Source: Microbacterium sp. LWS13-1.2 | Lineage (GTDB): Bacteria; Actinomycetota; Actinomycetes; Actinomycetales; Microbacteriaceae | Direction: 5' to 3' | Length of the DNA stretch: 64,000 nucleotides | NCBI RefSeq assembly: GCF_040144835.1 | Contig: NZ_CP151632.1 | Span: 1,798,001 to 1,862,000, forward strand | Shown: positions 25,605 to 29,707 of the stretch, piece after piece | How the letters are laid out: every line of letters starts with the position of its first letter | Position numbering within the stretch: position 1 is the first letter of the stretch | Made by a program: the position numbers and the translations under genes | The notes under the pieces: generated by a model | The model's database searches: none | What the model was told of the DNA's origin: nothing | The model's input: only the letters and a program-made list of their open reading frames with translations

Positions 25605-26057
25605 TCAGCCGGCGCGCGGGTCCGCAGTTGCGGATCCCCGCGCGGCTGACGCCTGCTGCTCCGCCGTGCGGTCACGCGCGACGGCATCGCCGATCATCTG
25701 ACCGCCGCTGCGCAGCAGCGCGCGACGCCACGGAAGGGTGCCCTCGATCTCGATCTGGATCGAGATCGACAGGATCGTACGGATCAGCACGATCAGACCC
25801 AGGATCGCTGCGTCCTCGAGGGACGGCTTCGAGGTGATGGTGCGGATCAGGTCCGCGGCCACCAGAACCTCGAGTCCCAGCAGGATCGCGGCGCCGAGCG
25901 TGGTGCGCAGCACCGTGAACGCGGCCTGCCCGCCCTCGTGGCGCGAAAGCGAACGGGCTCCGAGCACGAGGGCGATCACGAAGCCGACGATCATCGCGGC
26001 GGCGCCGACCGCCTCGAACCCGACGGCGACGGCGGTGAACAACGCCTCCATGTGCAC
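25605..26057 (-). CDS. DUF1622 family membrane protein
   Basis: This 150-residue membrane protein fits DUF1622: three hydrophobic helices (EALFTAVAVGFEAVGAAAMIVGFVIALVLG divided by a short loop, LGAAILLGLEVLVAADLIRTI, and AAILGLIVLIRTILSISIQIEIEG). The LEVLVAADLIRTI and IRTILSISIQIE segments are the family's strongest signatures. The function is unknown. GTG 26057 was preferred over ATG 26051 because a TAGGCT -10 ends exactly 6 nt before it. The tail after residue 118 is hydrophilic and variable. Confidence 0.88.
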   Translation of the reverse strand: MHMEALFTAVAVGFEAVGAAAMIVGFVIALVLGARSLSRHEGGQAAFTVLRTTLGAAILLGLEVLVAADLIRTITSKPSLEDAAILGLIVLIRTILSISIQIEIEGTLPWRRALLRSGGQMIGDAVARDRTAEQQASAARGSATADPRAG

Positions 26058-27044: not shown

Positions 27045-27338
27045 CTACGGGCGCTGATTCAGGATGCCGCGGCGCGACGGGTTCGCCTCGAACCAGTCCG
27101 CGACGTACCAGCACACCGGCACGACTTTGCGGTCGCCGCTCCGCTCGAGTTCTTCGACAGCCCGCTCGACCAGCTCGCCGGCGTAGCCGTGGCCGCGGAA
27201 CGTCGGCACGGTGTAGGCGCGCGTCATCGCGACAGTGCGGCCGTCGTCCCGGTAATCGAGCACGCTGACCAGGTGGTCGCCGCGGTGCAGTGTGTACCTC
27301 GAGGCATCCGTCTCTTTCTGGAAACGCAGCTCATTCAC
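27045..27338 (-). CDS. GNAT-family N-acetyltransferase (YjdJ-like)
   Basis: This 97-residue compact acetyltransferase is of the short GCN5-related group: FRGHGYAGELVERAVEEL is the acetyl-CoA pyrophosphate loop and following helix, and KVVPVCWYVADWFEANP matches the end of YjdJ-like proteins. The substrate is unknown. The second GTG (27338) was chosen because a TAGCCT -10 (27345-27350 on the complement) lies 6 nt upstream; the GTG at 27344 would sit inside the expected transcription start region. Confidence 0.87.
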   Translation of the reverse strand: MNELRFQKETDASRYTLHRGDHLVSVLDYRDDGRTVAMTRAYTVPTFRGHGYAGELVERAVEELERSGDRKVVPVCWYVADWFEANPSRRGILNQRP

Positions 27339-27344
27339 CCGCAC

Positions 27345-27350
27345 AGGCTA
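27345..27350 (-). promoter_or_regulatory. -10 element of a leaderless promoter (GNAT gene)
   Basis: TAGCCT on the complement ends 6 nt before the GTG at 27338. Confidence 0.5.
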
Positions 27351-27529
27351 CGCCCGGCAGGGGCCGCTGGGACGCATCTCGACCGACGTTCCGGCGATCG
27401 CTCAGCGTGCACGCAGGAAGCGTCTGGCGCGCCCGGAGACGGCTCCGCGACGACCCGCGCGCACCGCCGCGGTGGGGATTGAGCAATCTGTCACATTCCG
27501 AAACGATCGGGGCTCGGCATCCGTGCGAT
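27351..27529. other. Intergenic stretch without a recognisable gene
   Basis: Between the GNAT promoter and the short-ORF promoter I see no convincing gene or hairpin. Frames here lack start signals and family resemblance. Confidence 0.5.
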
Positions 27530-27559
27530 TTGACGTATTCCGACAAAGTCGGTCATAAT
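27530..27559 (+). promoter_or_regulatory. Strong promoter with internal palindrome (Cys short ORF)
   Basis: TTGACG (27530-27535) and CATAAT (27554-27559) are 18 nt apart, with the ATG 7 nt after the -10, so the transcript should be leaderless. CCGAC-AAA-GTCGG (27540-27552) lies between the two elements, a good position for a repressor or redox-sensing regulator. Confidence 0.65.
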
Positions 27560-27566
27560 CGGCCAC

Positions 27567-27668
27567 ATGACTGACAACGCGCTGTATCTGTCCGCCCGGG
27601 AGGCGAACAGGACTGCCGGCATGATGATGGCCGGTCGCGTTGCCATGTGTTGTCGAATGTGCCACTAG
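27567..27668 (+). CDS. Leaderless short ORF with clustered Cys codons (candidate attenuator peptide)
   Basis: This 33-codon frame starts at ATG 27567 and ends at TAG 27666-27668. Its C-terminus reads RVAMCCRMCH: three cysteines in the last six residues, two of them encoded by adjacent TGT codons that are rare at this G+C. Leaderless poly-cysteine short ORFs act as cysteine-responsive attenuators of sulfur genes in mycobacteria. A hairpin (27685-27725) follows 17 nt after the stop, and the next gene is a winged-helix regulator 230 nt on. The promoter and codon choice are directly visible; attenuation is inference. Confidence 0.6.
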   Translation: MTDNALYLSAREANRTAGMMMAGRVAMCCRMCH

Positions 27669-27684
27669 CACGGTGACCCCCGTC

Positions 27685-27725
27685 GGACTCCTCCTCCGCT
27701 TCTGAAAACGGATCGCACGGAGTCC
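27685..27725 (+). terminator. Hairpin after the Cys short ORF (possible attenuator)
   Basis: GGACTCC (27685-27691) pairs with GGAGTCC (27719-27725); inside, TCCG (27695-27698) can pair with CGGA (27709-27712). It could act as a conditional terminator or as a ribosome-position-dependent structure. There is no T-run. Confidence 0.35.
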
Positions 27726-27898
27726 CCCGAAGCACCGGTTTCGTGCGTCGATCACGCGCACCCGGATCCGCTTCGCACACCGCCCAACGTCGGGCACCGG
27801 CCTCCACCGGCCGACGGCCTCATCGCCTCCGACGATCCGGGCCGCAGCACATCCAACCCGGTTCCGCTCTCCGGGTTCCTCCCGCAAGGACCATCATC

Positions 27899-28645
27899 AT
27901 GTCGACCACCGCTCTCCTCGACCGTCCCACCACCGCTCCCGTCCGCCACCTCCGCGCCGTGAACACCCCGGCCGCTGTCGAGGCACCCGCCACGCCGGCT
28001 GCCGAAGCCACGCAGGCGGCCTCTCGTGCTCTGCCGGCCGGCACCGCACCGCGAGGCTTCGCCCTCTACGTCGGCCTCGACGAGGCCAAGGCCGCCGCAT
28101 CGGGCGTCAACCTGGGCGTGCTCGTCGATGCCCTGCGTCGCACGATCGCCGAGCTCGCGCCCTCCGCCGAGACCTACGCGACCGTCGCCCTCGCGCCGGT
28201 CGGCGCCGGCGGCCGCGACGTCGACGTCGTGCGCCTCGCCCTTCACGAGCCTTCGGCCGTGGCCCGCACCAAGCAGGAGGAGCCGGAAGAGGAGGACCCG
28301 TCGACCGGCGGCGTGGTCGTCGACATCTCGCGCAAGCGGGTGCTCATCGACGGCGAGTCCGCGGCCTTCACCTTCAAGGAGTTCGAGCTGCTGCAGTACC
28401 TCGTCCTCCGCGAGGGCCGCACGATCGAGCGCACCGAGCTGGTCACGTCGCTCTGGCAGGGCACGACCGACGACGACGCTCCCGGCGAGCGCACCATCGA
28501 CGTGCACGTGCGGCGCCTGCGCGCCAAGCTCGGCCGGTACGAGGACATCGTGCGCACGGTGCGCGGTGTCGGCTACCGGTTCGACCGCCACGCCGACGTC
28601 GTCATCCGCTACGGCCACGGCACCCCGTCGCCCGACCGCTTCTGA
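27899..28645 (+). CDS. Winged-helix (OmpR/PhoB-type) DNA-binding protein without receiver domain
   Basis: In this 248-residue protein residues 1-55 are low-complexity. Residues 60-125 form a small domain (FALYVGLDEAKAAASGVN, VDALRRTIAEL) not recognised. Residues about 138-235 form an OmpR-type winged helix: FTFKEFELLQYLVLREGRTI, ERTIDVHVRRLRAKLG and VRTVRGVGYRF. There is no phospho-acceptor domain, so it is not a classical response regulator. The ATG at 27899 follows AAGGA. It lies downstream of the Cys-codon short ORF and may be controlled through it. Confidence 0.85.
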   Translation: MSTTALLDRPTTAPVRHLRAVNTPAAVEAPATPAAEATQAASRALPAGTAPRGFALYVGLDEAKAAASGVNLGVLVDALRRTIAELAPSAETYATVALAPVGAGGRDVDVVRLALHEPSAVARTKQEEPEEEDPSTGGVVVDISRKRVLIDGESAAFTFKEFELLQYLVLREGRTIERTELVTSLWQGTTDDDAPGERTIDVHVRRLRAKLGRYEDIVRTVRGVGYRFDRHADVVIRYGHGTPSPDRF

Positions 28646-28666
28646 GCGTCGCGCCCCCGGCATGGA

Positions 28667-28689
28667 TGTCGGAGGCCGGGGCGTAGGGT
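28667..28689 (+). promoter_or_regulatory. RecA-NDp/PafBC-like promoter of the AlkA-type gene
   Basis: TGTCGGAG, 9 nt, then TAGGGT, 7 nt before the ATG. The spacer is one longer than the model, but the downstream gene is a base-excision repair glycosylase. Confidence 0.45.
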
Positions 28690-28696
28690 GGGCGGC

Positions 28697-29707
28697 ATGA
28701 CCACCTCGCTCTCGCGCATCCCTCGGACGAGGGGTGCCGAGCGCTTCGACGGGCGAGCCGCGACGGCTCGCGATCCCCGCCCTGATCCGGGCCGGCCGCT
28801 CGAGACGGAGTACCGGCCACGCCATCCGCTCGACCTTCGTCGCACCGTGCTGTACCAGCGGCGCGGTGCCGGCGACCCGACGATGTCGGTCTCCGGAGCA
28901 GTCATCTGGCGCGTGAGCCGCACTCCTGCGGGCATCGCCACCCTCGCGATCCGCGAGACCCACCCCGGCGTGATCCGCGGCGCCGCGTGGGGCCCCGGTC
29001 GCGAATGGGCGCTGTCGCAGCTGCCCGCGCTGTGCGGCGCAGACGACGACGGCGCAGACTTCGATGCGAGCCGGCATCCGCTCATCGCCGCCGCGCGCCA
29101 CCGCAACCCCGGACTCCGCCTGTCGCGCACGGGTCTCGTGTTCGATGCGCTCGTGGCGGCGATCTTCGAGCAGAAGGTCACGGGCATGCAGGCGTTCGCC
29201 GCCTGGCGGCGCGTGGTCACCTGGTGCGGCGAGCGCGCGCCCGGTCCGACGCCGGCGCCGATGTTCGCACCGCCGACCGTCGAGGGCTGGCAGCACGTCC
29301 CGTCGTGGGTCTGGCATCGCGCCGGGCTCGAGCCGCCCCAGTCCAAGACCGTGGTGCGAGCCGCTCGACGCGGCGATGCCATCGTGCGCACCGTGCTCGC
29401 CGCCGAGGACGGCGAGGCCGTCGACCGTGTGCTCGTCAGCCAGCACGGCATCGGCCCCTGGACCTCGGCCGAGACCCGCATCCGGGCCCTCGGCGACCCC
29501 GACGCAGTCAGCGTCGGCGACTACCACCTCGCCCACGAGGTCGGCTTCGCCCTCACCGGACACCGCGTCGACGATGACGGGATGCTGCGGCTCCTCGCCG
29601 CCTGGCCCGGTCAGCGCCAGCGCGTGATCCGGCTGATCGGCGCGAGCGGCGTGCGCGAGCCCCGCCGCGGACCGCGTCTGCACCCCGAGGATCACCGCGC
29701 CCGCTGA
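28697..29707 (+). CDS. DNA-3-methyladenine glycosylase II (AlkA-like)
   Basis: This 336-residue HhH-GPD superfamily protein has, in its N-terminal part, the TBP-like fold of AlkA. AAIFEQKVTGMQAFAAW is the conserved helix before the helix-hairpin-helix motif; QHGIGPWTSAETRIRALGDPDA is the hairpin with the DNA-binding glycine, and VSVGDYHLAHEVGFAL carries the catalytic aspartate. It removes alkylated purines. The start at 28697 is supported by a leaderless -10 that is part of a damage-type promoter. Confidence 0.88.
   Translation: MTTSLSRIPRTRGAERFDGRAATARDPRPDPGRPLETEYRPRHPLDLRRTVLYQRRGAGDPTMSVSGAVIWRVSRTPAGIATLAIRETHPGVIRGAAWGPGREWALSQLPALCGADDDGADFDASRHPLIAAARHRNPGLRLSRTGLVFDALVAAIFEQKVTGMQAFAAWRRVVTWCGERAPGPTPAPMFAPPTVEGWQHVPSWVWHRAGLEPPQSKTVVRAARRGDAIVRTVLAAEDGEAVDRVLVSQHGIGPWTSAETRIRALGDPDAVSVGDYHLAHEVGFALTGHRVDDDGMLRLLAAWPGQRQRVIRLIGASGVREPRRGPRLHPEDHRAR

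Follow-up and report, generated by a model that had tools for sequence, protein, structure and literature searches.

The comparative evidence collected here is best understood if a leaderless short ORF of Microbacterium sp. LWS13-1.2 forms the sensor arm of a device that attenuates translation of an orphan regulator of OmpR type, an interpretation to which we assign a probability of roughly 0.6 from sequence comparison. The ORF lies ahead of the regulator gene in a window of 64,000 nt, the whole stretch of DNA analysed (positions 1,798,001–1,862,000 of the 4.33 Mb genome), and the features of the locus are collected in Table 1. Compared across related loci, ORF and promoter are conserved, codons 28–32 are translated and constrained, and the Arg codon among them is fixed as CGA. 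Individual loci fetched for the comparison are labelled L with a number, the window's own locus being counted among them.

Table 1. Features of the short-ORF–regulator locus (window coordinates)
Feature	Position	Strand	Basis
Promoter TTGACG-18-CATAAT (−35 27530–27535; 18-nt spacer; −10 27554–27559)	27530..27559	+	predicted start at or beside the short-ORF ATG
Short ORF, leaderless-type, 33 codons, MTDN...MMM...MCCRMCH, TAG (ATG 27567–27569; stop 27666–27668)	27567..27668	+	comparative conservation
Hairpin H0, codons 8–15 of the short-ORF mRNA	27588..27610	+	fold and synonymous-codon randomisation
Hairpin H1: GCCGGC, AUGAUGAUG loop (codons 19–21, MMM), GCCGGU	27615..27635	+	stability and covariation
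Codons 28–32, TGT-TGT-CGA-ATG-TGC, slow-codon and Cys block	27648..27662	+	CGA 166/166; dN/dS about 0.02
Small hairpin GUGC-CACUA-GCAC across the stop codon	27659..27671	+	fold
Leader hairpin GUGCGU-CGAUC-ACGCGC	27743..27759	+	read from alignment
CAGCACAU, complement of the Met27-Cys28-Cys29 codons	27845..27852	+	close relatives only
Hairpin AACCCGG...CCGGGUU upstream of the SD	27855..27877	+	read from alignment
Regulator RBS: SD AAGGA (27886–27890), then CCATCATCATG over the start codon	27886..27901	+	fold, counts
OmpR/PhoB-type winged-helix regulator without a receiver match, 248 aa (start ATG 27899)	27899..28645	+	Pfam, homology

Judged by its recurrence across genera, which exceeds chance, the short ORF (peptide MTDNALYLSAREANRTAGMMMAGRVAMCCRMCH) is a real, conserved regulatory leader. 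The first-pass annotation, made from the window's letters, had proposed a 33-codon frame at 27567 ending CCRMCH; its coordinates are correct and the frame is conserved across genera. Among 110 loci of Microbacteriaceae that were selected on the downstream regulator and on nothing else, own locus included, 108 carry the ORF (79/80 regulator-chosen loci nearly all titled Microbacterium, and 29/30 loci of a family-wide regulator search that includes the own locus), and the two loci lacking it, L032 and L108, offer just 119 and 150 nt of sequence ahead of the regulator match. Loss of the Cys codons together with the frame, sought in homologous Microbacteriaceae loci, was not encountered. The larger tally, in which the ORF stands beside the regulator at 213 of 215 loci fetched from Microbacteriaceae (167 distinct DNA versions), contains some places fetched twice and, in L124–L145 and L180–L280, many loci picked by their ORF, so that 108/110 is the unbiased figure. 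A profile of 25 ORFs, applied to 299 family genomes from 85 genera, gave a match at E ≤ 0.01 in 215 genomes and 69 genera, with one copy in the own genome; 11 of the 20 no-match genomes listed are under 2 Mb. Of the 84 no-match genomes three were inspected (G004, G037 and G076, at L261, L259 and L260, respectively), and all three retain a degenerate C-terminal part beside the regulator. All strong profile matches (E < 1e-10) fell within Microbacteriaceae in searches of 297 order-level and 296 phylum-level genomes, the next-best having E values of 0.003–0.004, which is no proof of absence elsewhere given that the profile misses divergent ORFs of other families.

The leaderless start of the ORF is a prediction, the consensus promoter putting the likely start at the ATG; the promoter is where the first-pass annotation had located it, and the placement relative to the ATG fits the leaderless type. 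It is the only sigma-70-like site in 27345–28720, against a mean of 0.0 in shuffles. A −10-like hexamer was sought solely at 4–8 nt before the ATG of 162 distinct ORFs; the best one ends 6–7 nt from the ATG in 156 of them, and 151 have a TTGAC[ACGT] −35 located 16–19 nt above the −10. TTGAC is kept in all 23 aligned sequences (own included), with CATAAT or AATAAT as the −10. Over their first 27 nt the ORFs have less structure than their synonymous randomisations (z +0.65, n=162), which would suit leaderless initiation. The palindrome CCGAC-AAA-GTCGG that had been noted inside the promoter does exist (CCGACAAAGTCGG, 27540–27552); as an operator it was discarded, being retained in some close relatives only among the 23 sequences.

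Regarding the downstream gene, the prior assignment, a DNA-binding protein of OmpR type with no receiver domain, is supported: Pfam Trans_reg_C (PF00486) matches residues 153–228 (E 2.1e-20), and no Pfam match to a receiver domain was obtained at E ≤ 0.1. Trans_reg_C is present also on the 120 regulator homologs listed, and some N-terminal positions are conserved as well among 58 aligned homologs. The nearest named relative is Microbacterium psychrotolerans, with 97% identity in the regulator, and the closest solved sequences are those of the OmpR-family entries 8hml, 8hig and 8hih, which we take to be GlnR, with the match in the DNA-binding part. A regulator match below E 1e-45 is found in 289 of 299 Microbacteriaceae genomes, the other ten having weaker OmpR-type matches only. 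Records titled Planococcus sp. (L031, JASDDH010000010.1) and Coraliomargarita sp. plasmid (P0076) hold a Microbacterium-type regulator, probably through contamination or mislabelling. A DUF1622 protein adjoins the region (window 25605–26057, minus strand).

The two ends of the ORF evolve differently. Over close pairs of 119 33-codon ORFs, dN/dS is about 0.02 for codons 28–32 (CCRMC; 138 synonymous and 18 non-synonymous differences), compared to 0.52 for codons 2–8, 1.28 for 9–17, 0.76 for 18–22 and 0.61 for 23–26, and the end is therefore translated and constrained as protein, the front mostly as RNA. That front (dN/dS 0.5–1.3), under constraint of RNA and not peptide type, argues against the ORF encoding a trans-acting Met/Cys-rich mini-protein, for example a Cu(I)-binding one, a proposal that would draw on the composition of the last 15 residues (30% Met and 20% Cys in 162 ORFs) and that we consider very improbable. 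Its sequence varies between families, and a chain of 33 residues would remain largely inside the ribosome tunnel until release. The peptide has no Pfam match.

Within the constrained block, C-R(CGA)-M is the most rigid element, and the Cys run is not strictly required. Of the 167 distinct ORFs, 166 contain C-R-M and one is a CRK variant; all of them encode the Arg by CGA, although the 203 regulator genes at these loci use CGA for 134 of their 4,902 Arg codons. Cys occupies the first position in 155/166 ORFs, the second in 166/166 and the third in 160/166, being exchanged for Met, Arg, Ser or Leu in 11/166 at the first and for Ser, His or Pro in 6/166 at the third. Among the exceptions, L121 (...MSCRMSA) and L254 (...SSCRMPA) retain one Cys, and L100 reads ...LRCRMCA. 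The adjacent rare TGT codons that had been pointed out are confirmed at 27648–27653, 24 long frames of the window having 4 TGT against 44 TGC; across loci, TGT and TGC are used 133/22, 124/42 and 78/82 times at the three Cys positions, so that TGT fills 257 of 321 of the first two positions compared to 4 of 48 Cys codons in the window frames. The genome has 46 tRNA genes found, 37 of them typed and nine long ones left untyped, these being probably of Leu/Ser type. The typed genes include one tRNA-Cys (GCA) and tRNA-Arg ACG, CCG, TCT and CCT (two copies); tRNA-Arg(UCG) is absent among the 37, so that CGA relies on the ACG tRNA. Slow decoding of CGA is known from a his-leader attenuation system, reportedly that of Salmonella. 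In the accessible text on that system, CGA is decoded slower than CGU/CGC and NNU slower than NNC (PMC4046918), and TGT-TGT-CGA would accordingly represent a run of slow codons.

The same block could be viewed as an arrest peptide, in which nascent ...MCC with the slow CGA in the A site senses thiol redox or a small molecule, as opposed to the supply of Cys or Met. The near-invariance of C-R-M with its fixed CGA and the conservation of Cys residues with synonymous codons left free would fit; the peptides, however, vary between families while the sulfur residues persist, and slow TGT is preferred, which argues for decoding rate, so that we regard arrest as improbable. Base pairing was considered as another reason for the frozen CGA and is unsupported as a general one: over all loci the CCRMC block has no general partner in the leader (mean z −0.11, n=187), with hints in subsets only, CATTCG occurring 20 times in leaders and ATTCGAC 14 times in RBS windows versus once in the rest of the leaders. 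As an observation on such a subset, AAGGATTCGAC at the regulator RBS complements UGUCGAAU of the Cys-Arg-Met codons in L226, L231, L234, L239, L242, L246, L250, L258 and others. Pairing of GACAAC (codons 3–4) with GUUGUC was tried and dropped.

The front of the ORF carries RNA structure. The H0 and H1 regions are both more stable than synonymous-codon randomisations (mean z −0.82 and −0.87, respectively; n=155 each), and at least 4 bp are formed around MM(M) in 155 of 162 ORFs. The arms of H1 covary: own arms are paired 5/5 in 69% of 155 loci, and full pairing reaches a mean of 54% and a maximum of 60% when the 3′ arms are swapped among loci (500 shuffles). The distance from MM(M) to the central Cys is equally regular, with 6–8 codons between them in 154/155. 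At the start codon of the regulator, CCATCATCATG is the complement of the H1 loop, and in an alignment of 21 leaders the Met stretch 27617–27632 folds onto the regulator RBS and start (27888–27904). The CATCATC element lies over the start (−7) here and just 5′ of the SD (−29 to −20) in other genera; over 184 loci its density is 12.7 per kb in the RBS window and 0.32 per kb in the remaining leader, a difference of about 40-fold. It is found at the RBS in 75 of the 184 loci and is absent from 109, with a distribution (67/129 loci with ATGATGATG versus 8/55 without; Fisher p 1.4e-6) whose counts are inflated by relatedness, the p value being uncorrected for kinship. From these comparisons, the Met run occupies the loop of a hairpin with covarying arms and, at some of the loci, is complementary to the regulator RBS.

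Further structure surrounds these elements. The hairpin that had been claimed at the stop is present and in fact spans the stop codon. In the 27743–27759 hairpin, L025 has U-A for one C-G pair (by eye), and the alifold consensus puts the hairpin in a slightly shifted register; for 27855–27877, the L025 version is AAUCUC/GAGAUU and the consensus pairs the hairpin only partly. Pairing of the Met27-Cys28-Cys29 type is not general across loci. Rfam covariance models gave no match at E ≤ 1 in 27300–28100.

In the mechanism we favour, fast translation of the ORF would leave the H1 loop mostly free to pair with the RBS, and translation of the regulator would be held down. On scarcity of Cys-tRNA, or in relatives of Met-tRNA, ribosomes would dwell on TGT-TGT-CGA and the next ribosome, following at 27–30 nt, would queue about nine codons behind, on MMM. 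The queued ribosome would hold H1 open, with the effect that the RBS is freed and the regulator made, which would then run a sulfur-amino-acid response. The slow decoding of CGA and TGT would set the sensitivity. RBS opening energies were modelled in 181 leaders, 81 with a CATCAT-like complement and 100 without, by an energy model for which a loop–RBS contact with the stem kept, a pseudoknot, is beyond scoring. In the 81 complement loci, masking the MMM hairpin lowered the opening energy by a mean of 1.59 kcal/mol and masking the queued ribosome pair by a mean of 1.54 kcal/mol (drop >2 kcal/mol in 32%), compared to 0.01 and −0.01 kcal/mol for equally large control masks; in the 100 leaders without the element the effect was −0.10 and −0.12, that is, nothing. 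The model thus predicts release with ribosomes on the Met codons, in complement loci only.

Translational attenuation by the decoding of sulfur codons gives the best fit overall, with an attenuator of opposite sign and Rho-dependent attenuation as live rivals, and several observations weigh against it: more than half of the loci are without the RBS complement on which it leans, some loci retain one Cys and most ORFs of one related family (f12, below) are without Cys, the sulfur locus inspected in the own genome lacks a leader of this kind, and the complement leaves the frozen CGA unexplained. The variant of opposite sign, not exclusive of the attenuator's parts, would have the ribosome stalled at Cys free the hairpin behind it and so repress the regulator. 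With the hairpin at nt 49–69 and the ribosome edge at about nt 70, the 6–8 codon spacing suits this geometry, and a stall mask alone slightly raises the RBS opening energy: with a single ribosome on Cys the effect is −0.48 for loci with CATCAT and −0.31 across all loci, negative values that mean a slightly closed RBS and make the sign of the effect depend on queuing. The available excerpts on translation attenuators, however, describe stalling as unmasking the SD and cite the Cys leaders of M. smegmatis in this sense (PMC13236596, PMC9031893), so that we consider the opposite sign unlikely. Similarly unlikely, in our estimate, is Rho-dependent transcription attenuation, in which translation to the ORF end, or stalling there, would decide Rho loading on the C-rich leader. 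It would be consistent with C exceeding G in all 182 leaders (mean C 43%, G 26%), with spacers between ORF and regulator of about 90–350 nt (126–309 with refined starts) and with the absence of an intrinsic terminator or terminator-like site from 27345–28720; as far as the accessible text of the sources goes, a weak prediction of Rho control exists for the cys leaders of mycobacteria (PMC1262725), and CruR has been shown to be under it (PMC9426467). But Rho would have no need of an H1-loop complement near the RBS that is distributed together with the Met run, and an excess of C over G is seen in the regulator genes as well (0.09 versus 0.17 in leaders).

The regulator and its leader extend beyond Microbacteriaceae. 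At E ≤ 1e-25 the regulator is found in 22 of 119 order-level genomes, all within four families, and within three further families it is found in every genome searched: f6 120/120 (E ≤ 1e-30), f12 47/47, f7 60/60 (E ≤ 1e-25). We take f12, which includes Devriesea and Brachybacterium and whose loci are mostly of one genus, to be Dermabacteraceae, and f6 and f7 are, at a guess, Micrococcaceae and Brevibacteriaceae. Thirty upstream loci were read per family. The pattern ...C.RM.. occurs in 26/30 f6 loci, typically as ...MCCCRMQA, and CGAATG upstream in 30/30; all 30 f12 ORFs end QPSL with Met runs such as MRSMMSMMMMPMMHRQPSL and Cys in few; of the f7 loci 26/30 matched, mostly as MRMPAAAMCMPCVRGR and some as ...ACGCCCCL, although one match (L387) is not clearly a version of this element. 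With a loose score, a promoter-like sequence positioned as leaderless initiation would require was seen in 22/30 (f6), 18/30 (f12) and 26/30 (f7). With regulator starts picked by script, a few in f12 looking wrong, a CATCAT-like sequence is at the RBS in 22/30 f12, 2/30 f6 and 1/30 f7 loci; the peptides listed for f6 and f7 have no MMM, and the family counts suggest that the RBS complement goes with the Met run. Across peptide types as different as CCRMC, CCCRMHA, MCMPCVRGR, ACGCCCCL and MMMMPMMHRQPSL, the common factor is sulfur-amino-acid codons. Other pairings were seen in passing: GCATTCGA in four f6 leaders (L208–L210, L212) is the complement of CGAATGC in the short ORF, and at some f6 RBSs the sequence is AAGCATTCATG. 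In the f7 loci L215–L218 a hairpin directly follows the Cys codon with its stem altered on both sides (by eye), as GTTCGCGACC/GGTCGCGAAC in L216–L217 and CGTCCGCGGCC/GGCCGCGGACG in L218.

There exist analogies to leaders already described. The signal of the whiB7 leader is an antibiotic. Stalling in the whiB7 leader uORF of mycobacteria is described as inducing a transcription regulator, as it would here; that case is treated as transcription attenuation, whereas here an intrinsic terminator was not found and the codons are Cys/Met (PMC13236596). Closest in kind are the mycobacterial polycysteine short ORFs (Canestrari et al. 2020, Mol Microbiol 114:93, as cited in PMC9031893, PMC9094748 and PMC13236596), which are leaderless, have contiguous Cys codons, here too found near the stop, and control the downstream gene by attenuation. 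Compared to what these citing texts convey, the present leader differs in its DNA-binding regulator downstream, a Cys run that is not strict, Arg fixed as CGA, a Met-loop/RBS complement in part of the loci and some poly-Met relatives. Sulfur assimilation genes do not follow it: the downstream gene encodes the Trans_reg_C protein in the window and its homologs at the other loci, the latter by selection, as loci were found by that homology. The accessible part of a study of Actinobacteria reports Cys-run leaders without terminators before cys operons, and Leu codons pairing with the SD of leuA (Seliverstov et al. 2005, PMC1262725). This LEU element shares with our locus a leader codon run complementary to the downstream Shine-Dalgarno region, except that Leu codons and leuA are replaced by a Met run, a hairpin loop and a regulator gene, with the complement in part of the loci. 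The copper uORF of CruR type, in the portion of PMC9426467 available, resembles our locus in having an upstream ORF with Cys and, after it, a long spacer rich in C; of the DUF2946 protein, the CXXC and RAPP arrest motifs and the transporter operon downstream, none occurs here, RAPP being absent from the peptide. Among the matches listed from titles and abstracts of the open literature, where subscription papers are mostly outside, neither this short ORF nor any sulfur-codon leader before a regulator is described.

The first-pass annotation had suggested coupling of cysteine supply to the regulator. The conserved Cys codons and the adjacency of the regulator bear this out in part, and cysteine alone is too narrow: with a Cys run that is not strict, a Met run with its RBS complement and poly-Met relatives, decoding of Cys/Met would describe the presumed signal better. 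Directly upstream of the own-genome sulfur locus, where in our reading a sulfite reductase adjoins two PAPS-reductase-family genes, no Cys leader was found. Repeated ACATG/CATGT palindromes near that locus (L318:1300-1370) lie between two divergent genes and are perhaps the operator of a neighbouring regulator; located between other genes, they were set aside as evidence of a Cys leader.

Taken at its widest, a reading we hold only tentatively and at slightly less than even odds, the arrangement would be an ancient riboregulatory device of at least four families of one actinobacterial order, combining a leaderless ORF of sulfur codons (Cys or Met depending on the family, with Microbacteriaceae using both), a Met run antisense to the RBS and a fixed slow CGA, and governing a nearly universal regulator of sulfur-amino-acid starvation. 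If true, a whole regulon, and not one operon, would be placed under decoding speed at sulfur codons, and an orphan regulator nearly universal in its family would acquire a function. The same nucleotides would serve as codons, hairpin loop and antisense, and the frozen CGA would make a synonymous-codon change decisive. Leaders with Cys only, Cys and Met, and Met only would constitute a natural series for the evolution of leader codons with the signal.
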